From the NCBI GenBank assembly GCA_028874995.1, contig JAPPGM010000052.1, positions 1-54,308 on the forward strand: a DNA stretch of 54,308 nucleotides, in the 5' to 3' direction. Positions 1,435-51,188 of this stretch are shown here, piece after piece; position 1 is the stretch's first letter; each line of letters opens with the position of its first letter. The DNA comes from Gemmatimonadota bacterium. GTDB lineage: Bacteria; Gemmatimonadota; Gemmatimonadetes; Longimicrobiales; Gaopeijiaceae. Under the pieces are notes generated by a model, which was not told where the DNA came from, searched no databases, and was given only the letters and a program-made list of their open reading frames with translations. Both the position numbers and the translations under genes were made by a program.

Positions 1435-3837
1435 ATGTCGCGCCCCATCCGCCCACCTGCCACCCACGCCCTCTGCCCCCGTCTCGGTCCCGCCCTATTG
1501 GTCCTCGCGGCCCTGGCGACCGCCGTCGCAAGTCCCGCCCCCACCCTCGCGCAGACCGTCGACTACTCCCGCGCCGAGCGTTTTCTCACCTGGAACACGC
1601 AGCCCCTCATCGCGGGAGCCGGCGTCAGCCCGAACTGGATGGAGACCGGCGACACCGACCGCTTCTGGTACAGGAACAACACCGGGTCGGGCTACGAGTT
1701 CATCCTGGTGAACCCGGCCGCCGCAAGCCGCGAACGGCTCTTCGACCACTACCGGCTGGCCAGCGCCATGTCGCTCGCCAACGACACCAGCTACGTCCCC
1801 GAGAAGCTGCCCTTCAGCACCTTCCGCTTCGGTGACACCGAGAGCGAGATCGAGTTCACGACCGGCGGCAGGCGCTTTCTCTGCGACATCGCCGGGTACG
1901 CCTGCACCGTCGCCGACACGCTCCCTTCGCGGACCGCATTCGTGGAGTCGCCCGACGGGCGCTGGGAGGCGTTCGCGCACGAGTACAACCTGTATGTGCG
2001 CCCCGCGGAGGGCGGCGACTCGATCCAGCTCACCACCGACGGTGAGAAGTACTACGCCTACGGCTACAACGAGCCCAGCCCCAACCAGCAGCGCCGGGGG
2101 GGCGGGGCACGGCGTCCCACGCTCTCCTGGTCACCGGATTCCCGCTACATAGCCGTCTCCCGGCGGGACGAGCGCGACGTGGAGCACATGCACTACATCT
2201 CCTACACGCAGCAGCGCCCCCGTCACTTCTCCCAACCGTACGCGCTGCCGGGCGATTCGGTGATCCCGCTGCCGACCGTCCACATCCTGGCACTCGAGGA
2301 GACCGGCCCGGCCGACGGCGGCGATCCAGGCCTGCGCGCGGCAGCCAACCACCAGGTCGAAGTCGCGCCAACGCCGCATCAACTCTCCTTCCGGGGCTCC
2401 GCTCCCGATTCGGCGTGGAGTGCCGACGGGACGAGGCTGCACGTCAACTACTTCACCCGTGGATCCCAGCGAGTGCTCCTGGCCGAAGTCGACGCCGCGA
2501 CGGGCACGTCCCGGGTGATTCTGGGCGACTCCACCCGGACCTTCGTCTCGCTCGGGCACCGGGGCGGCGGTTCCAGCGGGGGCACCCCGTCGTGGTACGT
2601 CTCCGAGAGCGGCGACGACGTGATCTGGTGGTCGGAACGCGACGGATGGGGACACCTCTACCGCTTCGACGGCGAGGGGAACCTGAGGAACCGCATCACT
2701 TCGGGGCCGTGGGTGGTGGGCGAGGTCCTCCATGTGGACGAGACGCGCCGGCGCATCCACTTCGTCGCGCGCGGCCGCGAACCCGGGCGGAATCCGTACT
2801 ACGCCCACCTCTACCGGGTCGGGTTCGACGGCTCGGACCTCACGCTGCTCACGCCCGAGGACGCCAACCACGAGATCGTGTTCTCGCCGAGCGGCGACCA
2901 CTTCGTGGATACTTACTCGCGCATCGAGCAGGCGCCGGTCATCGTCCTGCGTCGCGCCAACGACGGCCGCATCGTGCTGGAGCTGGAGCGGGCCGACATC
3001 TCCGCGCTCGAGGAACTCGGCTTCGCCCCGGCGGAGGTGTTCTCGGCGAAGGCGCGCGACGGCATCACCGATCTGTACGGGGTGCTCTATCTGCCCCCCG
3101 GCCTCGACGAGAACGCGAAGTACCCGATCATCTCGCACATCTACCCGGGACCCCAGGTCGGCAGCGTCGGCGCGTGGGCGTTCAAGGGTGGCGGAGAGAA
3201 CTTCGCGCTGGCGCAGCTCGGCTTCGTGGTGGTGCAGATCGACCACCTCGGGACGCCGCACCGCTCAAAGGCGTTCCACGACAGCTACTACGGCAACTTC
3301 ATCGACAACGGCATCCCCGACCACATCGCGGTGATCAAGCAGCTCGCCGCCCGCTATCCGTTCATCGACCTGGACCGCGTGGGAATCTACGGGCACTCGG
3401 GCGGCGGTTTCGCCTCCACCGACGCCATCCTGCGCTTCCCCGAGTTCTTCAATGTGGCCGTCTCCGGAGCCGGCAACCACGACAACCGCAGCTACAACAT
3501 CTACTGGGCCGAGAAGTACCAGGGGGTCATGCAGTCCGACTCCGGCGGCGGGGACAACTTCGAGTCCGCGGCGAACAAGACGTACGCCGCGAACCTCGAA
3601 GGCAAACTGCTGCTCATGCACGGCGACATGGACGACAACGTGCACCCCGCCATGACCGTCCAGCTGGTCGACGAGCTGATCAAGGCAAATCGCGACTTCG
3701 ACTTCATATGGGCGCCGAACCGGGCGCACGGCCTGAACGAGCCCTACTTCATCCGGCGGCGCTGGGACTATTTCGTGCGGCACCTGCTGGGGGCCGAACC
3801 GCCGAGCCGGTACGAGATCACGAGGCCGACGGGGTAG
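1435..3837 (+). CDS. Secreted S9 family peptidase, dipeptidyl peptidase IV-like
   Basis: An 800-residue serine peptidase of the prolyl oligopeptidase clan, expected to remove N-terminal dipeptides (often Xaa-Pro) from peptides in the periplasm or outside the cell. The ATG at 1435 is chosen because it opens a signal peptide (PALLVLAALATAVASPAPTLAQ). An upstream in-frame ATG at 1303 would add an implausible leader and sits inside the operator. Residues ~50-540 form the beta-propeller, and the C-terminal ~260 residues form the alpha/beta hydrolase domain. The triad is readable: Ser655 in GHSGG, Asp733 in HGDMDDNVH, and His765 in NRAHGL. Its own AT-rich operator region suggests regulated expression as a single unit; the next gene converges on it. 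Confidence 0.93.
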   Translation: MSRPIRPPATHALCPRLGPALLVLAALATAVASPAPTLAQTVDYSRAERFLTWNTQPLIAGAGVSPNWMETGDTDRFWYRNNTGSGYEFILVNPAAASRERLFDHYRLASAMSLANDTSYVPEKLPFSTFRFGDTESEIEFTTGGRRFLCDIAGYACTVADTLPSRTAFVESPDGRWEAFAHEYNLYVRPAEGGDSIQLTTDGEKYYAYGYNEPSPNQQRRGGGARRPTLSWSPDSRYIAVSRRDERDVEHMHYISYTQQRPRHFSQPYALPGDSVIPLPTVHILALEETGPADGGDPGLRAAANHQVEVAPTPHQLSFRGSAPDSAWSADGTRLHVNYFTRGSQRVLLAEVDAATGTSRVILGDSTRTFVSLGHRGGGSSGGTPSWYVSESGDDVIWWSERDGWGHLYRFDGEGNLRNRITSGPWVVGEVLHVDETRRRIHFVARGREPGRNPYYAHLYRVGFDGSDLTLLTPEDANHEIVFSPSGDHFVDTYSRIEQAPVIVLRRANDGRIVLELERADISALEELGFAPAEVFSAKARDGITDLYGVLYLPPGLDENAKYPIISHIYPGPQVGSVGAWAFKGGGENFALAQLGFVVVQIDHLGTPHRSKAFHDSYYGNFIDNGIPDHIAVIKQLAARYPFIDLDRVGIYGHSGGGFASTDAILRFPEFFNVAVSGAGNHDNRSYNIYWAEKYQGVMQSDSGGGDNFESAANKTYAANLEGKLLLMHGDMDDNVHPAMTVQLVDELIKANRDFDFIWAPNRAHGLNEPYFIRRRWDYFVRHLLGAEPPSRYEITRPTG

Positions 3838-3864
3838 CTCGCCGGGCCTCCTCCACCAACTCGC

Positions 3865-4626
3865 CTACCGATCCTTGAGCGGCTCCTCGCCGCGCAGGGC
3901 CAACGGCGGGCCCAGCACCTCGCGCGCGACCACGAGCCGTCGCAGGTCGCGCACCGAACCAAGGCCCGGCCCTCCTCCTTCCCCACCCCACCCCACCTCC
4001 GCACGCCGACGTCGGCCATCGGCCACGGCCTCCGGCACCGCGGCGATCGCGGCCCGCTCCTCCGTCCAGGCGCGCTCCACCAGATCCCGCGCCTCCCGGG
4101 GCCGCACTTCACGCGAGCGCACCTCGACCGGCCGGGGCGACCTGTCACGACGGGGAACCACCGGCTTCGGTTGCGGCGGCGGCTCGGGCACCGCGACCGG
4201 CGCGGCGGCGGGTTGCGGCATCGGCTCGAACATCCGCTCTATCTGGCCACGCAGGGTCACCGGTTCGACGACCGGCGGGGGTGCAACGGGATCCAGGGTC
4301 GGCCGTTCAGGCAGCGGAGCCGACTCGTCCGGCACGTCCAGTTCCCATTTCACCTCCGGCGCACGAGGATCCACCTCTCTCTCCCGCACCCGCTGCTCGC
4401 GAATCGGGCGATCACCAACCTCTGGCGCCACCTCAAGCCCCTGTTCCTCCCCCCGCGGCAGGCGTTGCAACTCCTCGATCACCCCGGCCAGCGGGTCCGC
4501 CGGCCTGCGAGGTGCGGTCCCGTCCTCGAGCCCCTCCTCCTCCCCACGCCTCTTCCTGGCCATCTTGGCGAGCATCTCCATCAGCGCCGCGATCAGGAAG
4601 ATGGCCGCGATAAACCGGATATCCAT
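3865..4626 (-). CDS. Membrane-anchored proline-rich protein of the floA operon
   Basis: A 253-residue protein of unrecognised family. The N-terminus (IRFIAAIFLIAALMEMLAKM) is a single transmembrane anchor followed directly by basic KMARKRR, predicting a cytoplasmic tail. The tail is acidic and proline-rich (several PPP and PEPPPQP stretches around residues 100-155), then Arg/Glu-rich with helical potential (residues ~165-200). It is the last gene of the minus-strand nfeD-floA group, 61 bases after floA, so it may act with the flotillin-like scaffold. In Bacillus subtilis the third gene, yqfB, is small and unrelated as far as I can tell. Low complexity makes homology assignment by eye unsafe. 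Confidence 0.7.
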   Translation of the reverse strand: MDIRFIAAIFLIAALMEMLAKMARKRRGEEEGLEDGTAPRRPADPLAGVIEELQRLPRGEEQGLEVAPEVGDRPIREQRVREREVDPRAPEVKWELDVPDESAPLPERPTLDPVAPPPVVEPVTLRGQIERMFEPMPQPAAAPVAVPEPPPQPKPVVPRRDRSPRPVEVRSREVRPREARDLVERAWTEERAAIAAVPEAVADGRRRRAEVGWGGEGGGPGLGSVRDLRRLVVAREVLGPPLALRGEEPLKDR

Positions 4627-30134: not shown

Positions 30135-30554
30135 CTACCGGTCGGGAAGGCCGGACGGCTCGTTCCCGTCGGGGGGTGGAACCTCTTCGCCGGTCGTCTC
30201 CTCCGGGTCCGGCGGAACCTCTTCGACCCCGGGGATCAGAATCGGCGATTCCTCGCCCTCCTGCAGCAGCGGCGTCGGCACCGTTGGCGCGTCCATTCCC
30301 TGGAGCACCGAGGTGGGCCCGGTCGCGCGGGAGGACATGATGGCCAGGATCAGCGACAGTCCCATGAACGCGGACCCCCCAATCCACGTCGCGCGCGTAA
30401 GGAAGGAGGTCGCCTGGCGACCGCCCAGAACCTCGGTCGCGGCGGCGCCGCCACCCATCGCGGCCAATCCGCCGCCCTTCCCCGCCTGGAGCAGGATGAC
30501 CACGCCCAGGAACAAACCGTCGAGAACCAGCAGAGTCAGAAGAAATCCGTACAT
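30135..30554 (-). CDS. secG: Preprotein translocase subunit SecG
   Basis: 139 residues. Two transmembrane helices (about 2-22 and 55-73) flank the SecG signature LLQAGKGGGLAAMGGG and SFLTRATWIGGSAF. It supports SecYEG-dependent export. The C-terminal 60 residues are an acidic proline-rich extension (EEVPPDPEETTGEEVPPP) that many SecG proteins of GC-rich phyla carry in variable form. Position after tpiA is the classic gap-pgk-tpi-secG order. Confidence 0.93.
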   Translation of the reverse strand: MYGFLLTLLVLDGLFLGVVILLQAGKGGGLAAMGGGAAATEVLGGRQATSFLTRATWIGGSAFMGLSLILAIMSSRATGPTSVLQGMDAPTVPTPLLQEGEESPILIPGVEEVPPDPEETTGEEVPPPDGNEPSGLPDR

Positions 30555-30620: not shown

Positions 30621-31352
30621 TCAACCCGCTCCCGCCCCCGCCTCGGCGATCCGCGCGAAGACATCCGGATCCAGACTCGCGCCTCCCACCAGCACTCCGT
30701 CCACATCGCGCGCCGACATCAGCGCGGCCGCGTTGCCGGGCTTGACGCTGCCTCCGTAGAGCACGGGAGCCCGTCCCAACGCGCCCAGCGCATCCCGCAC
30801 GATCCCGTGCGCCTCGGACGCATCGCCGGGCGTGGCGGTCTCTCCGGTCCCGATCGCCCAGACCGGCTCGTAGGCGACCATGAATTCGGCAACGCCCGCG
30901 AGCGACCCCGCAAACGCGCCGACCTGTCTGCGCAACACCTCATCCAGACGGCCGGCCCGTCGCTCCTCCAGCTGTTCGCCCACGCATACGACCGGAACCA
31001 GGCCAGCCCGCACCGCCGCTCCCACCTTGCGGTCGACCTCGGCGTCGGTCTCACCGAAGACGTGTCGCCGCTCGGAGTGGCCGATCAGCACCAGCGCGGC
31101 CCCGGCTTCCTTCGCCATCTCGGCCGAAATCTCTCCGGTCAGGGCTCCGGCGGCCTGCCAGTGGATGTTCTGGACACCGAAGTCGGCCCGGGTGCGCGCG
31201 CTGTCGATCGCGGTGCTCAGAGACAGGTCGGGCGGGAAGAAGACGAGCCGAACCGAATCGTCTCTCACCTCGGGGCGGAAGCGGGAAAAGAACCGCTCGG
31301 TTGCGACGGGCCCGTGATGCATCTTCCAGTTGCCGGCCACCACCTTGGCCAT
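30621..31352 (-). CDS. tpiA: Triosephosphate isomerase
   Basis: 243 residues from ATG 31352 (MAKVVAGNWKM, with the catalytic Asn and Lys). The catalytic His is in LIGHSERRHVFGE, the catalytic Glu in VAYEPVWAIGTG, and the phosphate-binding loop is VLYGGSVKPGNA. It interconverts glyceraldehyde-3-phosphate and dihydroxyacetone phosphate. The codons further upstream in frame overlap pgk and are not part of the protein. The gap to pgk is 19 bases. Confidence 0.97.
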   Translation of the reverse strand: MAKVVAGNWKMHHGPVATERFFSRFRPEVRDDSVRLVFFPPDLSLSTAIDSARTRADFGVQNIHWQAAGALTGEISAEMAKEAGAALVLIGHSERRHVFGETDAEVDRKVGAAVRAGLVPVVCVGEQLEERRAGRLDEVLRRQVGAFAGSLAGVAEFMVAYEPVWAIGTGETATPGDASEAHGIVRDALGALGRAPVLYGGSVKPGNAAALMSARDVDGVLVGGASLDPDVFARIAEAGAGAG

Positions 31353-31371
31353 CAGCGTGTCCTCCGGAGCT

Positions 31372-32652
31372 TCAGGGTTCGCTGGAAAGGTCTGCGGCCA
31401 CGTGCCGGGAGCGCCGGGCCGAAAGCGCCGCCACGCCGGGCAGCTCCTTGCCGGCGAGCAGGTCGAGCGACGCGCCGCCGCCCGTGGAAATGTGGCTGAT
31501 GCGCGTGGCGACGCCAGCTGCGCGGGCCGCGGCAGCCGAATCCCCACCCCCGACAATCACCGTCGCTCCCCGGTCCGCGACATCGGCCGCCATCCGCGCC
31601 ACCCCGACGGTACCGTGCGCGAATTCGTCGATTTCGAACACCCCCAGCGGGCCGTTCCACACCACGGTTGCCGCCCCCGCCAGGTAATCACCGAAGAGAC
31701 GGACCGTAACCGGGCCGACGTCGCCCACCGCTTCGCCGGGGGGGATGTCCGCGCGATCCACGACCCGGGTGGGGGCGCCCGCCGCGATTGCCGGCGCGGT
31801 GACGCAGTCCACCGGGAGCACCAGACGCGAGGCCGCGGCTTCGAGCACCTCCGTAGCGACTCCGGTCTTCTCCGCTTCGACCAGCGACGTCCCGGTTTCC
31901 ATCCCCATGGCGCGGAAGAAGGTGTTGGCCATGGCGCCCCCCACCAGCAGGGCGTCCACGCGCGGCAGCAGCGCCTCGATGACGTCGATCTTGCCGGAGA
32001 TCTTGGCCCCCCCAAGGGCCGCCACGAAGGGACGGCGCGGTTCTTCGAGCGCATCCGCAAACGCCACGAGTTCCCGCTCCACCAGCGCCCCCGCCACCGC
32101 CATACCCCCCTTCGCGCGCACGGCACGAGGCAGCCCGTCCGTGGAAGCGTGCGCGCGGTGCGCAGTTCCGAATGCGTCCAGGACGAAATGGTCAGCCCAT
32201 TCGGCCCAGTCGGTTGCCAGCGCCCGTTCGTTGGCCGTCTCCCCCGGGAGAAAGCGCGTGTTCTCAAGGAGGATGACCGAACCCGGCTCGGCAGCTCCCA
32301 CCGCACGCCGGACCCCGGGGCCCCACGTGTGCGGCACGAACCCCACCGGCGCGGCGAGCAGCTCGTCCAGGCGGCGGGCCACCGGCTCCATCGTGAGCGC
32401 CCTGTCCTGGCGCCCGCCCGGCCGCCCCAGGTGCGAGAGGATGACGACCTTCGCGCCCGCGGCGACGAGTCGTTCGATGGTCGGCACGGTGCGCTCGATT
32501 CGGGAAGCGTCCGACACCATTGCGGCCGTGGACTGCCCCGCACCCTCCTGCTGCGCCGCCGGGGTCAGGGGAACGTTGAAGTCGGCCCTGAGCGCGATGG
32601 CGGTCCCCTTGATGGGGCGTTCCTCCAGGTCGTCCAGGTCGTGGGGAACCAT
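31372..32652 (-). CDS. pgk: Phosphoglycerate kinase
   Basis: 426 residues from ATG 32652; a GTG at 32673 is possible. Signature stretches: ALRADFNVPL, VVILSHLGRPGG, VILLENTRFLPGE, FVAALGGAKISGKIDVIEALLPRVD, VVWNGPLGVFE and GGGDSAAAA for the nucleotide site. The family signature often has RxDxNVP followed by a short spacer; here a ~12-residue polar insertion (AAQQEGAGQSTA) follows it. It makes ATP from 1,3-bisphosphoglycerate in glycolysis. Upstream on the same strand is the TonB/anti-sigma gene rather than gapA. Confidence 0.96.
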   Translation of the reverse strand: MVPHDLDDLEERPIKGTAIALRADFNVPLTPAAQQEGAGQSTAAMVSDASRIERTVPTIERLVAAGAKVVILSHLGRPGGRQDRALTMEPVARRLDELLAAPVGFVPHTWGPGVRRAVGAAEPGSVILLENTRFLPGETANERALATDWAEWADHFVLDAFGTAHRAHASTDGLPRAVRAKGGMAVAGALVERELVAFADALEEPRRPFVAALGGAKISGKIDVIEALLPRVDALLVGGAMANTFFRAMGMETGTSLVEAEKTGVATEVLEAAASRLVLPVDCVTAPAIAAGAPTRVVDRADIPPGEAVGDVGPVTVRLFGDYLAGAATVVWNGPLGVFEIDEFAHGTVGVARMAADVADRGATVIVGGGDSAAAARAAGVATRISHISTGGGASLDLLAGKELPGVAALSARRSRHVAADLSSEP

Positions 32653-32709
32653 CCGGCGCCGGCCAGCGGGCACGAAGGTCAGCTCAAGATCCTGTTGCTC
32701 GCGCGGATA

Positions 32710-33552
32710 TCACCGCGGACCGTCGGCTTCAAAGGGGATCTCGACGGCCTGATACTCGGGATCGGGTTGGGATCCCGTCCTATTCGGCTCGAACCGGATC
32801 GAGAACTCGACCCAGGTCCCGACCTTCTGTCCCGCACGGGTGGCCGGCAGGAACCTGAAGGAGCGGGTCGCCCGCAGCGCGGCCTCATCGAGTCCCCGCC
32901 TGCCCGACGAAGTCCGAACCGTGGGCGTCTCCGGAGTTCCGTCCGGACGCACCCAGAGCAAGACGCGCACAACGCCTCCGATGCCGGCGGCTTGCAACGC
33001 GACCGGGTACTCTTCGGTCACAACGCGACGAGCAAGGTCGCGATCCAGAAGGGACGGCAGCGTCGGGGGGAGCGGCGGAGGGGGGCCGTCCAGCCCTTCG
33101 GCGGGCGCTGGCCGTGGCGGGGGTTCGAGCTCGGGTGCAGGACGCTGCTCTTCCGGAACGGCCAACTCCTCGACTTCCACCACCACCGGCGGCACCGGGG
33201 GAGGCGACGGTGGGGGATCAACCGCTGTGGGCCTGGCTTCCGGCAACGACAGAAACAACCGCGCAAGGGAAGCGCGGGCCGGCGGGACAAGCAATGCGCC
33301 AATCAGCAGCAGCACCACTGCGGCTGCCGCGAGAAGCCTTCTTCGGGTCCCAACGGAGCGTGACGCGCCAGCGGACTGCATTCGCACGTACTCGGCTGCC
33401 AGCTCGGCGCGCAACTCGGGCCCGAACGAGCACCGCTCCTCGATCGAGAGGTCGCGAAGGTCACGATCGAGGCGAGCCAGGTCAGGTGAACCCGTCTGCC
33501 CGGCTTCCGGATACCTGATGCTGCCTCCAGTGTCGTCGCGACGGCGTTTCAT
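32710..33552 (-). CDS. Anti-sigma-like membrane protein with a TonB C-terminal domain
   Basis: 280 residues. The N-terminal ~70 residues are cytoplasmic and charged, with helical stretches (LARLDRDLRDLSIEERCSF, PELRAELAAEYVRMQ) and no zinc HxxxCxxC motif. One transmembrane helix (about 73-92, LLAAAAVVLLLIGALLVPP) is followed by a periplasmic Pro/Glu-rich spacer (~105-165), then a TonB C-terminal fold (VRVLLWVRPDGTPETPTV, GLDEAALRATRSFRFLPA). The start codon overlaps the stop of the ECF sigma gene by 4 bases, the usual arrangement for a cognate anti-sigma factor. It may sense the state of an outer-membrane receptor directly and hold the sigma factor. Function is inferred. Confidence 0.8.
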   Translation of the reverse strand: MKRRRDDTGGSIRYPEAGQTGSPDLARLDRDLRDLSIEERCSFGPELRAELAAEYVRMQSAGASRSVGTRRRLLAAAAVVLLLIGALLVPPARASLARLFLSLPEARPTAVDPPPSPPPVPPVVVEVEELAVPEEQRPAPELEPPPRPAPAEGLDGPPPPLPPTLPSLLDRDLARRVVTEEYPVALQAAGIGGVVRVLLWVRPDGTPETPTVRTSSGRRGLDEAALRATRSFRFLPATRAGQKVGTWVEFSIRFEPNRTGSQPDPEYQAVEIPFEADGPR

Positions 33553-34157
33553 CGTTGGCCTCCGGCAGCGTCCGCGGCGACGGCGGCCTTCAGCCTCGTG
33601 AGCGCTCGGTGCATCCGAACCGCAACCGCGTTCGAGGTGATTCTCAGCGTGTCGGCGATCTCCGCGTTGCCGAGGTCAGCTCCGTAGCGGAGGGAAAGGA
33701 TCTCCTGGTCGGCCGGCCGCAAGGTCGCTGCCGCGTTGAAGAGCCTGCGCAACTGTTCCTCCCGCAGAAGCCGTTCTTCCTGGGACGGTCCCTGCGAGAC
33801 CAGGTCGGGCACGCGGTCCAGGGAGATGTGGAGGGACCCTTTGCGCCGCAGCGTGCGGAGGTAGTCCGTGACCGCGTTGCGCGCGATACGCAGCAGCCAG
33901 GTGCGGGGGGCCGACCGTTTGGGGTCGTATCGCCGGAGCGCGCGCAGTGCCTTGAGGAAAACCTCCGAGGTGACATCTTCCGCGACTTCCCGGGTGGGGA
34001 CCCGGAAGCGCACATACCGATAGACGGACTCGCGATAGTCGCGGAACCAGGCGTCGAAGTCGGGAGGGAGTTCGGGCGACGCGGCAGCCGCTTCACGAGT
34101 CCGGGTGCGCGGCCGGTTGGACCGTCGCCGGACTCTCGTCTCTGTGGGGCTCATCAT
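33549..34157 (-). CDS. ECF-type RNA polymerase sigma factor
   Basis: 202 residues from ATG 34157 (next ATG 34154); a TTG at 34169 is less likely. Region 2: FRDYRESVYRYVRFRVPTR, AEDVTSEVFLKALRALRRYD, and RTWLLRIARNAVTDYLR. Region 4: LRPADQEILSLRYGADLGNAEIAD followed by the HTH ITSNAVAVRMHRALTRLK. There is no region 3, so it belongs to group IV. The N-terminus has about 35 basic residues. It sits between gapA and pgk, co-oriented, and is coupled to the TonB/anti-sigma gene. Its regulon is unknown; the glycolytic genes around it could be part of the same transcript. Confidence 0.94.
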   Translation of the reverse strand: MMSPTETRVRRRSNRPRTRTREAAAASPELPPDFDAWFRDYRESVYRYVRFRVPTREVAEDVTSEVFLKALRALRRYDPKRSAPRTWLLRIARNAVTDYLRTLRRKGSLHISLDRVPDLVSQGPSQEERLLREEQLRRLFNAAATLRPADQEILSLRYGADLGNAEIADTLRITSNAVAVRMHRALTRLKAAVAADAAGGQR

Positions 34158-34228
34158 CGTTATCCCCAATACGTTGCCATGTGACGCCGCTTACAACCGG
34201 GCCGCAGTATCGACGTTCGGCACTGGAG

Positions 34229-35242
34229 TCAGCCCAGGCGCTCGCCCACGTACTCGACCAGGTCGACCAGCCTGGACGAATATCCCCACTCGTTGTCGTA
34301 CCAAGCGAGTACCTTCACCAGGCGCCGGCCCATGACCGCCGTGCTGAGCGCGTCCACGACCGAGCTGGCGGACTCCCCGGTAAAGTCCACCGAGACCAGC
34401 GGCGCTTCCTCGACTCTGAGTATGCCCGCCAGCTCCGTGGAGGCCGCGGCGCGCAGGGCGTCGTTGACCTCCTGCTCGCTCACGTCCTCCTCCAGCTCGG
34501 CCACCAGGTCCACGAGGGACACGTCGGGGGTGGGGACCCGGATGGCCATGCCGTCCAGCTTGCCCTCCAGTTCGGGAAGGACCAGCGAAATCGCCCGGGC
34601 CGCGCCCGTGGTGGTGGGAATCATGCTCACGGCGGCCGCGCGGGCGCGGCGGAGATCCTTGTGTGGCCCGTCCAGCACCGCCTGTCCCGCCGTGTACGCG
34701 TGGATCGTGGTCATGAGGCCGCGGACGATGCCGAACTCCTCCAGGAGCACCTTGGCCACGGGCGCCAGGCAGTTTGTCGTGCAGCTGGCGTTGGAGATCA
34801 GGTGATGGCTGGCGGGGTCGTAGAGATGGTGATTGACCCCCAGCACGACCGTGATGTCCTCGTCCTTTGCCGGCGCCGAAATCACCACCTTCCGGGCCCC
34901 CGCATCCAGGTGCTTCGAGGCCAGTTCCCGGCTCCTGAAGATCCCGGTGGACTCGACCACCACGTCCACCTGCAGCTCCTTCCAGGGCAATCGGGCCGGA
35001 TCGCGCTCCGAGAGGACCAGGATTTCGTCCCCGTCAACGATCAGCCCGTCGTCCGACAGCTCCACCGAACCCGGATAGGAACCGTGCACCGAGTCGTATT
35101 GCAAGAGGTGCGCGAGCGTCCTGCTGTCCGTGAGGTCGTTGACGGCAACGAAGTCGAGGTTGGTATTCCCCGACTGCTTGGCGGATCTCAGGACGTTCCT
35201 GCCGATGCGGCCGAAGCCGTTGATCGCGACTCTGACGGACAT
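34229..35242 (-). CDS. gapA: Glyceraldehyde-3-phosphate dehydrogenase
   Basis: 337 residues from ATG 35242 (MSVRVAINGFGRIGRNVLR), preceded by GGGAG. Frame extension upstream overlaps comF and is discarded. Catalytic Cys in SNASCTTNCLAPV, catalytic His in TTIHAYTAGQ, and WYDNEWGYSSRLVDL at the C-terminus. The Asp in VNDLTD after the second strand favours NAD over NADP. It is separated from pgk by the sigma/anti-sigma pair, whereas in most genomes with this cluster gap and pgk are adjacent. Confidence 0.97.
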   Translation of the reverse strand: MSVRVAINGFGRIGRNVLRSAKQSGNTNLDFVAVNDLTDSRTLAHLLQYDSVHGSYPGSVELSDDGLIVDGDEILVLSERDPARLPWKELQVDVVVESTGIFRSRELASKHLDAGARKVVISAPAKDEDITVVLGVNHHLYDPASHHLISNASCTTNCLAPVAKVLLEEFGIVRGLMTTIHAYTAGQAVLDGPHKDLRRARAAAVSMIPTTTGAARAISLVLPELEGKLDGMAIRVPTPDVSLVDLVAELEEDVSEQEVNDALRAAASTELAGILRVEEAPLVSVDFTGESASSVVDALSTAVMGRRLVKVLAWYDNEWGYSSRLVDLVEYVGERLG

Positions 35243-44158: not shown

Positions 44159-46051
44159 TCAGTTCCAGAACGTCCACCGTACCCCGTACACGCCCCGGGT
44201 GACGGGCAGCAGCACCCCGGGCACGTCCTGGTTGTTGTCCCTGAACGACACGTTTTCGACCGTGGCGAAGATGTTGAGGGTGAGGAACCGCAACTGAAGG
44301 CGGAAGTACCAGTTCTGGTAGAAGGGCACGATGGACGGCACCCGGATTTCCTCCCCTTCGTCGTCCAGCACCGGCGGCGTCTCCTCGTCGGGCAGCGGCA
44401 CGTACATTTCCGAGCGCCCGTGCACGCCGAGGTCCGCCCACATCTCGAAGTTGCCGGTGGCGCGGAAGACCCGGTGGAAGGAGAAGCTGGCGCGATAGGT
44501 GTGTTCGGGGAAGTAGAGCGTCGCGGAATCGGCCTCTTCCCAGAGCTGTACTTCGGCCACGAGGAAGAGTCCGCGCGGGCGGAGCGGCACCCTTCCGGTC
44601 ACCTCCCACCCCTTTCTCAGCGGCTGCGGGAGCACGACGCCGCCGCGGTCGAAGAGGAGTTGCGTCGGCCACACGGAGTCCGCCTCGACCGAAAGGCGCG
44701 CCACCGATACCTCATGCAGGCGCCAGGTCCCGCGCACCCCGAGACGCGTGGCGGCGCGGGTGGTGAAGCGGCTCGAAGGTCCCGGGTCCGCCTCCATCGA
44801 ATCGGGGTCCTCCATGGTGACGGTTGTGTCCTCGGGCTCCTCCGGCGGCAGCGGATTGAGGTAGGGGACGGAGCGGCTGCCGTTGCCGCGTTCCGCGAAC
44901 AGGGCCGCGTACGGAATCGGTGTGACCCAGACCCGCACGCCGTACCCCGATCCCACCTGCTCGTCCCACGTCTCCCTCCACGTATGCCCATTCACACCGC
45001 CCCACCGTCCGGCAAGGGCCGAGAACTCGGCTGCGAGCTCGCGTTCGGCGATGCCGCTGCCGCTGTTGAAGCGGGCCGTCGCACGCCCCCAGACCGGGCC
45101 CCTGCTCCCCGACAGGCTCGTGCCGTACTGTCGGCGCGACTCCGCCGAAAAGGGGAAGACCTGAGTCGTGTCGCCGGTCGAAACCGACGCGCCGGCCACC
45201 CAGCCCTGGGCGAGGAGACCCTCGGCGGGTGCCCAACCGCCCTGCAGGCTCCAGTCGGTCCGGTTCACCGACGCGGGCGAATCGTTGATGACCGTCCGCG
45301 TCGTGCCCATCCGCCGTATCTCGTAGCGCACCCCCGCCCGGTCGCCCCGGTGGAGGCTGTAGCGAAACCATCCCCCCGTGATGGCACCGGGGTTGTCGCG
45401 CCCCCTGGTGTCGAGCCGCTCGATCGCGAGCGCCCCCTTGCCTCCGAACATCCTGGGCATGGAGACGGTTCCCCGCAGCATGTTGGTGTCCTGGTCGCCG
45501 GTGCCCGCCTCCACCAGTGACGAGGGCCGCTTGTCGGCGTGCGCCAGGCGAAAGAGCCGCACCTCGACCCCCCCGGGCCGCTGGATCACACGCACCTGTT
45601 CCAGCCCCGACAGCGGGATGCGCGTCAGATCCGGGACCGAACCTTCCAGCGGCAGATGCTCGATGCCGTCGTAGTACAGGCGCAGACCTCCCCCCGCGTA
45701 GCCGGTCGGGAAGACCGTCGCCGCCGACCCGAAGTCTCCGCTCCGCACGCCAAGCAGGCCCGGGATGTCCACCAGCAGTTCCCACAGCGTCTGCCCCCGT
45801 GCAGCGAGCAGCCCGGCGCGGTCCCACTCCCAAATCCCGGTGATCAGGCCGGCCGGAGTGGGGTCGGGGAGGGTGGGGAACATCGGCGGCGGCGGGACGC
45901 TGTCCACCTCCACGCTGTCGGCCGCGACGGAGTCCGCGGGCACGCTGTCCGCTACCATCGTCGAGTCCCGGAGGGAATCCGGGGGAACCTGAAGGCTGTC
46001 CGGGGGGTCCTGGGCGCTCGCCTGGAGTGGGAGCAGCGCCAGGACGGCCAT
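44159..46051 (-). CDS. Outer-membrane protein with TonB-dependent receptor plug domain
   Basis: About 630 residues from ATG 46051; a TTG at 46192 would add a basic leader, so the start is uncertain. A hydrophobic signal (MAVLALLPLQASAQ) is followed by a Ser/Asp/Val-rich spacer of DSxxADSV repeats (~15-50) and a proline patch. A plug-like section (LITGIWEWDRAGLLAARGQTLWELL..., YYDGIEHLPLEGSVPDLTRIPLSGLEQVRVIQRPGG, cited in part) resembles TonB receptor plugs. The rest is alternating amphipathic strands with aromatic girdles ending in TFWN, an outer-membrane barrel. The barrel (~450 residues) is shorter than typical SusC-type receptors. Ligand unknown. Confidence 0.8.
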   Translation of the reverse strand: MAVLALLPLQASAQDPPDSLQVPPDSLRDSTMVADSVPADSVAADSVEVDSVPPPPMFPTLPDPTPAGLITGIWEWDRAGLLAARGQTLWELLVDIPGLLGVRSGDFGSAATVFPTGYAGGGLRLYYDGIEHLPLEGSVPDLTRIPLSGLEQVRVIQRPGGVEVRLFRLAHADKRPSSLVEAGTGDQDTNMLRGTVSMPRMFGGKGALAIERLDTRGRDNPGAITGGWFRYSLHRGDRAGVRYEIRRMGTTRTVINDSPASVNRTDWSLQGGWAPAEGLLAQGWVAGASVSTGDTTQVFPFSAESRRQYGTSLSGSRGPVWGRATARFNSGSGIAERELAAEFSALAGRWGGVNGHTWRETWDEQVGSGYGVRVWVTPIPYAALFAERGNGSRSVPYLNPLPPEEPEDTTVTMEDPDSMEADPGPSSRFTTRAATRLGVRGTWRLHEVSVARLSVEADSVWPTQLLFDRGGVVLPQPLRKGWEVTGRVPLRPRGLFLVAEVQLWEEADSATLYFPEHTYRASFSFHRVFRATGNFEMWADLGVHGRSEMYVPLPDEETPPVLDDEGEEIRVPSIVPFYQNWYFRLQLRFLTLNIFATVENVSFRDNNQDVPGVLLPVTRGVYGVRWTFWN

Positions 46052-50618: not shown

Positions 50619-50669
50619 TGCTTTAGAGTGTGGGACAACCAGGGAACTCGAGCAGGACGGAGGAAGACC

Positions 50670-51188
50670 ATGAAGTTCGGACGTCACGACATCAGGAATC
50701 TCGCGATCATCGGCGCGTGCGCAGCCGCGGGGCTCGTGGCCACGGGGATCGTCATCGACGCGGTGGAGGGGCCGCATGTCCAGTACGAACGCATCGTGGT
50801 TGAACGCGAGCAGATCCGGTCGGTCGAGTTCAATGTCCGGACGGTCCCCATCCAACCGCGCAAGACGCGCACTGCGCGGATCCGGGTGCGGGGCAGCAGC
50901 GACGCATCGCCGGTCGTCTACATCGACGGGGTTCGGGTCAATACCGGCCCCCGCTGCGATTTCTGCCCCACGCATCACACGCATCACGGGGCAGAACCGA
51001 CCGGCCACCTCGATGACCTGACTCCCGAAGACATCGCCAAGATCGATGTCGTCAAGGGCGACAGGGCGCTGGAGTTCGGTACGGAGGGCAAGGAACGCGG
51101 GGTAATCCTGATCACGACCAAGGAGGGGAGGAAGAAGGGCTCGGGGGAGAAGAAAGACTCAGGGGAAAAGGCCGAAAAAGGGCCCTGA
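50670..51188 (+). CDS. Small membrane-anchored TonB-plug-like protein with Cys/His cluster
   Basis: 172 residues from ATG 50670, with GGAGGAAG upstream. A transmembrane anchor or signal (about 11-29) is followed by a beta-rich linker. A plug-domain section comes next: VVYIDGVRV, LTPEDIAKIDVVKGDRALEFG, GVILITTKEG, as in TonB receptor plugs, but no barrel follows. Inside the plug loop is Cys96, Cys99, His102, His103, His105, His106 and His113, suggestive of metal binding. The tail is a Lys/Glu/Gly-rich repeat (KKGSGEKKDSGEKAEKG). Similar plug-only segments occur at the ends of regulatory or M56-type proteins in this group of phyla. Function unknown. Confidence 0.8.
   Translation: MKFGRHDIRNLAIIGACAAAGLVATGIVIDAVEGPHVQYERIVVEREQIRSVEFNVRTVPIQPRKTRTARIRVRGSSDASPVVYIDGVRVNTGPRCDFCPTHHTHHGAEPTGHLDDLTPEDIAKIDVVKGDRALEFGTEGKERGVILITTKEGRKKGSGEKKDSGEKAEKGP

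Follow-up and report, generated by a model that had tools for sequence, protein, structure and literature searches.

A 54,308-nucleotide stretch of a Gemmatimonadota genome (hereafter the window) encodes, between gapA and pgk, an ECF sigma factor and an overlapping membrane protein that carries a TonB-type C-terminal domain (TonB_C). Our comparative analysis suggests, with rather better than even confidence, that the membrane protein is the transmembrane anti-sigma factor cognate to this sigma factor, that its TonB_C serves as the sensor and that the sigma factor is freed upon an event at that domain. The evidence comes from the window's own family (f1; Longimicrobiales, Gemmatimonadota), in which 121 genomes were surveyed for the sigma factor, and from a second family with a seemingly orthologous pair.

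A sigma factor and a membrane protein split the gapA-pgk-tpiA-secG block

The sigma factor P0002 (33549..34157, minus strand; 202 amino acids) has the composition of an ECF protein, with about 200 residues and sigma-70 regions 2 and 4 only (Pfam Sigma70_r2, E 8.5e-19; Sigma70_r4_2, E 1.2e-9), and it matches the NCBIfam sigma70-ECF model (E 3.8e-32). The BldN family (TIGR02952) is its top specific NCBIfam model, with a score of 133 bits that falls short of the curated cut-off of 206 for membership. Mean column identity of the sigma factor across 26 family orthologues is 69%. Upstream of it lies gapA (34229..35242); downstream, about 40-60 bp past the partner gene, pgk (31372..32673) is followed by tpiA (30621..31358) and secG (30135..30554). 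An earlier note on this DNA had described a gap-pgk-tpi-secG block split by a sigma factor gene and a membrane protein gene overlapping it by four bases, a description that proved exact in its coordinates, with all genes on the same (minus) strand. No promoter or terminator was called in the gap between the partner gene and pgk, and the spacing makes it likely that the pair is co-transcribed with pgk-tpiA-secG.

The partner protein P0001 (32710..33552, minus strand; 280 amino acids) starts inside the sigma stop codon, the two genes sharing the four bases ATGA. Its conserved N-terminal domain (residues 22-60, SPDLARLDRDLRDLSIEERCSFGPELRAELAAEYVRMQS; 33373..33489), a putative sigma-binding (anti-sigma) element, is followed on the same strand by a transmembrane helix (residues 73-91; 33280..33336), a proline-rich periplasmic spacer (about residues 104-164; 33061..33243) and TonB_C (residues 181-255; 32788..33012; Pfam accession PF03544). 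The TonB_C match scores 60.9 bits against a gathering cut-off of 24.6 (E 1.6e-16) and was recovered again in a profile search of the whole genome. The single hydrophobic helix (Kyte-Doolittle 2.58) is preceded by net positive charge, which predicts an N-in topology with one membrane crossing. An alternative reading of the helix as a signal peptide, prompted by the ARA that follows it, was rejected: the arginine stays invariant while the small residues vary, and the N-region runs to about 70 residues. P0001 thus has the hybrid architecture that the note had proposed.

The two genes come and go together

Within f1, the sigma factor is present in 51 of 121 genomes and absent from the remaining 70. 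A partner accompanies it in 50 of the 51 genomes: 48 encode the standard form (a full-length count that includes one protein split over two contigs), one is cut by a contig break and one lacks TonB_C. In G107, the sigma factor and gapA end one contig, and TonB_C beside pgk ends another. The 51st genome (G034, locus L074) has lost the partner and keeps a truncated remnant of the sigma factor between gapA and pgk. Damaged copies occupy the same position in two other genomes, one with an in-frame stop in the partner (G035, L041) and one with no sigma factor and just a C-terminal remnant of the partner (G100, L087). All three loci are best described as decaying copies of the cassette.

No full-length partner was found in the f1 genomes that lack the sigma factor, and gapA stands directly beside pgk in 17 pair-less genomes that were inspected, including a member of the window's own genus (G014, GapA 90% identical) in which the two genes are 75 bp apart. 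This co-occurrence, and the absence of both genes from pair-less loci, therefore indicates that the two genes come and go together; conservation of the pair in relatives, named in advance as a point on which the proposal could fail, holds across f1. A synteny survey further found the order gapA-sigma-partner in all 30 family loci retrieved, a recurrence that argues against a chance arrangement. The pair is followed by pgk, tpiA and secG also in loci with a much longer partner (L078, L079).

An orthologous-looking pair in a second family

The nearest sigma factors outside f1 belong to family f4, which is part of the same class of Gemmatimonadota. A profile of the f4 sigma factor scores 175-182 bits on its f1 counterpart in five f1 genomes, where the next ECF protein reaches at most 69 bits, and finds nothing above 64 bits in two genomes without the pair. 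The f4 and window sigma factors are also reciprocal best matches (181 bits versus 69 for the next ECF protein) and look like one-to-one orthologues. The gene after the f4 sigma factor (L166:2174-2761; L167:2709-3302; L168:2351-2953; L169:2221-2904 and 3566-4249; L170:2141-2680) codes for a small membrane protein that shares the N-terminal motif (in f4, LPPELADLDRALGGVRFEPRASLGPEI), and the N-termini of this protein and P0001 align with high significance (hhalign 97%, E 7.5e-11).

Beyond its membrane helix, the f4 partner differs markedly from P0001, in that its periplasmic part repeats a DRCCFDLDGGG motif. Two repeats of the DRCCxDxDGGGxxDDG type are accompanied by a stretch, EDRDxSxxFxPxD, that resembles an EF hand; a Pfam scan of two of these proteins gave no match to this part. 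Where an f4 locus is long enough to show it, the partner gene is followed by one for a TonB-dependent receptor; the L168 receptor has a barrel (E 4.9e-41) and a Plug domain (E 2.3e-16). The periplasmic part of the f4 partner is possibly a metal-binding sensor encoded upstream of the receptor gene. In one locus (L169:1661-4249, genome G169) the sigma-partner pair is tandemly duplicated upstream of the receptor gene.

The N-terminus shared by the two families had been called anti-sigma-like in the earlier note. Residues L32, E39, R40, E46, L47 and L51 are invariant among 27 partner relatives, and residues 22-60 are predicted, at low confidence, to be helical; an AF2 model of P0001 built from three sequences (pLDDT 42) was too weak to use. 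Searches of Pfam, NCBIfam, the PDB and HMM databases returned zero matches between this segment and a known anti-sigma domain. The Hx3Cx2C motif of class I zinc anti-sigma factors is absent from P0001, and neither their Pfam and NCBIfam profiles nor those of FecR match it. Profile searches of the two halves of the protein, which the note had proposed, therefore bear out TonB_C (E 1.6e-16) and leave the anti-sigma label resting on comparative evidence. That evidence is as follows: the partner gene adjoins one sigma factor gene and is conserved with it, and the N-terminal cytoplasmic domain stays with the orthologous sigma factor while the periplasmic part changes. Such tracking across families is how an anti-sigma domain behaves and lends the proposed role indirect support. 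In genomes that lack the sigma factor, matches to the N-terminal motif were at background level only, and the top one (L149) was rejected as it does not adjoin a sigma factor.

The f4 pair adjoins an acyl-CoA dehydrogenase-like gene or other genes, not gapA-pgk. This bears on the reading, to which we give close to an even chance, that the pair is a regulatory unit whose location between gapA and pgk is incidental and bears no regulatory relation to glycolysis. The f4 neighbourhoods fit an incidental location, as does the undisturbed gapA-pgk junction in those examined among the f1 genomes without the sigma factor, but the placement is fixed in all fetched f1 loci despite deep divergence, and co-transcription with pgk-tpiA-secG is likely from the spacing. 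The connection to central carbon metabolism that the note drew would be one of position only, with the sigma factor missing from 70 of 121 relatives.

The outer part of the partner is modular

The outer part of the partner varies within f1 as well. In one subclade (L035, L036, L038-L040, L042 and L043), partners continue for about 600 residues past TonB_C through TPR-like and GWxTD-like regions, and the extension of the L042 protein matches TIGR04514 (E 6e-7). The G057 partner keeps the N-terminal motif and membrane helix, has no TonB_C and runs straight into a TPR/GWxTD-like region. Because the sigma tree places G057 inside the TonB_C-TPR clade, TonB_C was probably lost in this lineage. With one lineage having lost the domain while keeping the sigma factor and N-terminus, TonB_C cannot be indispensable for the pair. 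Since the f4 orthologue joins the same N-terminal motif to a different periplasmic domain, we regard the sigma factor and N-terminus as a constant unit and the outer part as modular. The natural variants, in which TonB_C is replaced or lost and the presumed sigma-binding end is kept, amount to a ready domain-swap series that could show whether TonB-box contact alone carries a signal.

The TonB-type domain as a binding or sensor domain

A histidine in the membrane helix (SxxxH-like motif) serves the coupling of energy-transducing TonB to ExbB/ExbD. None of 27 partners (P0001 and 26 relatives) has a histidine in this helix. The tonB behind two exbD genes in the same genome encodes one, and so does the gene of a TolA-like protein. 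Linkage of the partner to exbB/exbD was not found either, the exbD genes being located on other contigs, two of them beside another tonB. Because its helix lacks the histidine, unlike that of the exbD-linked TonB, the partner is probably not an energised TonB, and its TonB_C is more likely to act passively, in binding or sensing, than as an energiser.

An accessory TonB that energises one receptor, with the sigma factor controlling uptake and the partner not regulating the sigma factor, would account for the overall TonB layout of membrane helix, proline-rich spacer and TonB_C. We consider this very unlikely, given the missing helix histidine, a conserved cytoplasmic N-terminus that follows the sigma factor even in partners without TonB_C, and sigma and partner genes that overlap or abut in relatives.

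A different account deserves more weight, although we put it somewhat short of an even chance: the partner may be a sigma/anti-sigma-type regulator whose TonB_C acts as a general binding module in the periplasm, sensing the periplasm's state or stress on the envelope. It would contact peptidoglycan or a lipoprotein, or serve dimerisation, and would not touch TonB-dependent receptors. TonB_C is promiscuous in this genome, where a whole-genome search found 11 such domains, including fusions to M56 peptidases and short lipoprotein-like proteins; in the subclade described above it is followed by the TPR/GWxTD-like region, which replaces it in G057; and the f1 operon contains no receptor gene. A receptor as ligand is favoured instead by the f4 orthologous pair, with a TonB-dependent receptor gene directly downstream, and by the TonB_C signature residues (YP, GG and the F-x-PA region), which are strongly conserved in partner relatives.

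The M56 (BlaR1-like) peptidase-TonB_C fusions are encoded at L003 and L007 (contigs C55 and C163), and at L003 a BlaI-like gene precedes the fusion gene. The fusions represent another signalling use of TonB_C in the phylum.

The note had also pointed out two plug-type proteins in the window. The match of the first (44159-46051) to Plug falls below the cut-off (E 1.1e-3), and the second (50670-51188) has a partial Plug (E 1.2e-8). The latter forms part of a short membrane-anchored protein (50628-51188, plus strand) that has no barrel and is possibly a stand-alone plug-like protein. We rejected a link between these proteins and the pair, as 10-17 kb separate them from it, neither belongs to the operon, and one is sub-threshold. 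No anti-phage defence was found.

A conserved putative promoter precedes the sigma gene

A putative autoregulatory ECF promoter, TGTAAG-N16-CGTA (34170..34195, minus strand), precedes the sigma gene, its CGTA ending 12 nt before the ATG. Nearly all relatives carry (T/G)GTAA(G/C)-N16/17-CGTA shortly before the sigma gene, where 11-17 nt separate CGTA from the start codon. The fixed pattern TGTAAS-N16/17-CGTA occurs in 23 of 29 loci, whereas across 300 sets of dinucleotide shuffles it averaged 0.04 loci and never exceeded 1. The observed count is somewhat favourable, since the choice of start codon was made with reference to CGTA. Several of the misses carry close variants (CGGAAA, TGTCA), and f4 has an equivalent, TGTGAC-N16-CGTAT, at the same place. 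The short distance between CGTA and the start codon suggests that the sigma mRNA is probably leaderless or nearly so.

Since this conserved element directly precedes the sigma gene, autoregulation with a very small regulon is the simplest reading. The strict pattern has three sites in the whole genome, one of them at the sigma gene, a number not above the reversed control. No second conserved target was found in the genome and relatives. A site at a TPR-protein gene in two relatives was rejected, as it also occurs in a sigma-less relative and is not conserved in others. The f1 and f4 proteins would represent one sigma group common to two Gemmatimonadota families, with a defined promoter.

Proposed mechanism

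In the sigma/anti-sigma arrangement that we favour, residues 22-60 or so of the partner would bind the sigma factor and hold it at the membrane, and TonB_C, on its proline-rich arm, would span the periplasm as the sensor. TonB_C would engage or lose a ligand, for which the TonB box of a receptor in the outer membrane is the simplest candidate, and one favoured by the receptor gene in the f4 operon. The anti-sigma factor would then be inactivated or cut, and the freed sigma factor would transcribe its own operon from the TGTAA(G/C)-N16/17-CGTA promoter. Read-through could also raise expression of pgk-tpiA-secG. A more elaborate version seems unlikely to us: that TonB-box docking reports receptor occupancy to the sigma factor with neither a receptor signalling domain nor proton-motive force, and that the response reaches lower glycolysis by way of the same operon.

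Comparison with known systems

FecI/FecR/FecA cell-surface signalling (PMC9249621) similarly combines an ECF sigma factor with an overlapping or adjacent single-pass inner-membrane regulator that has a periplasmic domain, and the f4 operon shares with it a downstream TonB-dependent receptor gene. Unlike FecR, the partner matches no FecR profile; the f1 protein has TonB_C as its periplasmic part and lacks a linked receptor gene. The linked TonB-dependent transducer with a signalling (STN) domain that typifies FecIRA systems is absent from the f1 operon, and the f4 receptor gave matches to Plug and barrel only, with none to STN.

PUMA3 (VreA-VreI-VreR) of Pseudomonas aeruginosa resembles the window pair in having a TolA/TonB-like C-terminal domain in ECF surface signalling and a four-base overlap of the sigma gene with its neighbour (PMC2729926). 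In PUMA3 this domain resides on VreA, a separate periplasmic STN protein, and the anti-sigma factor VreR is a third protein (PMC2729926), whereas in the window pair the membrane protein carries the TonB-type domain.

RsbN-BldN (class III) and CnrY-CnrH (class II) also place a short, helical cytoplasmic segment that lacks zinc ahead of one membrane helix (PMC7406223, PMC8103513), and BldN provides the top specific model for the window sigma factor, though below cut-off. The P0001 N-terminus has no sequence match to these proteins, and the likeness is one of form only. The M56-TonB_C proteins of the same genome likewise fuse TonB_C to a membrane signalling protein, but they are peptidases, with a BlaI-type repressor as neighbour in L003 and no sigma factor.

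A described anti-sigma factor fused to TonB_C was not found in the searchable open-access literature, which leaves the absence of one unproven. In the described surface-signalling systems that we searched, the receptor's signalling domain (in PUMA3, a separate periplasmic protein) addresses the anti-sigma factor, with TonB acting separately as the energiser. A TonB-type domain within the regulator would, if true, represent a new wiring of known surface-to-gene signalling.
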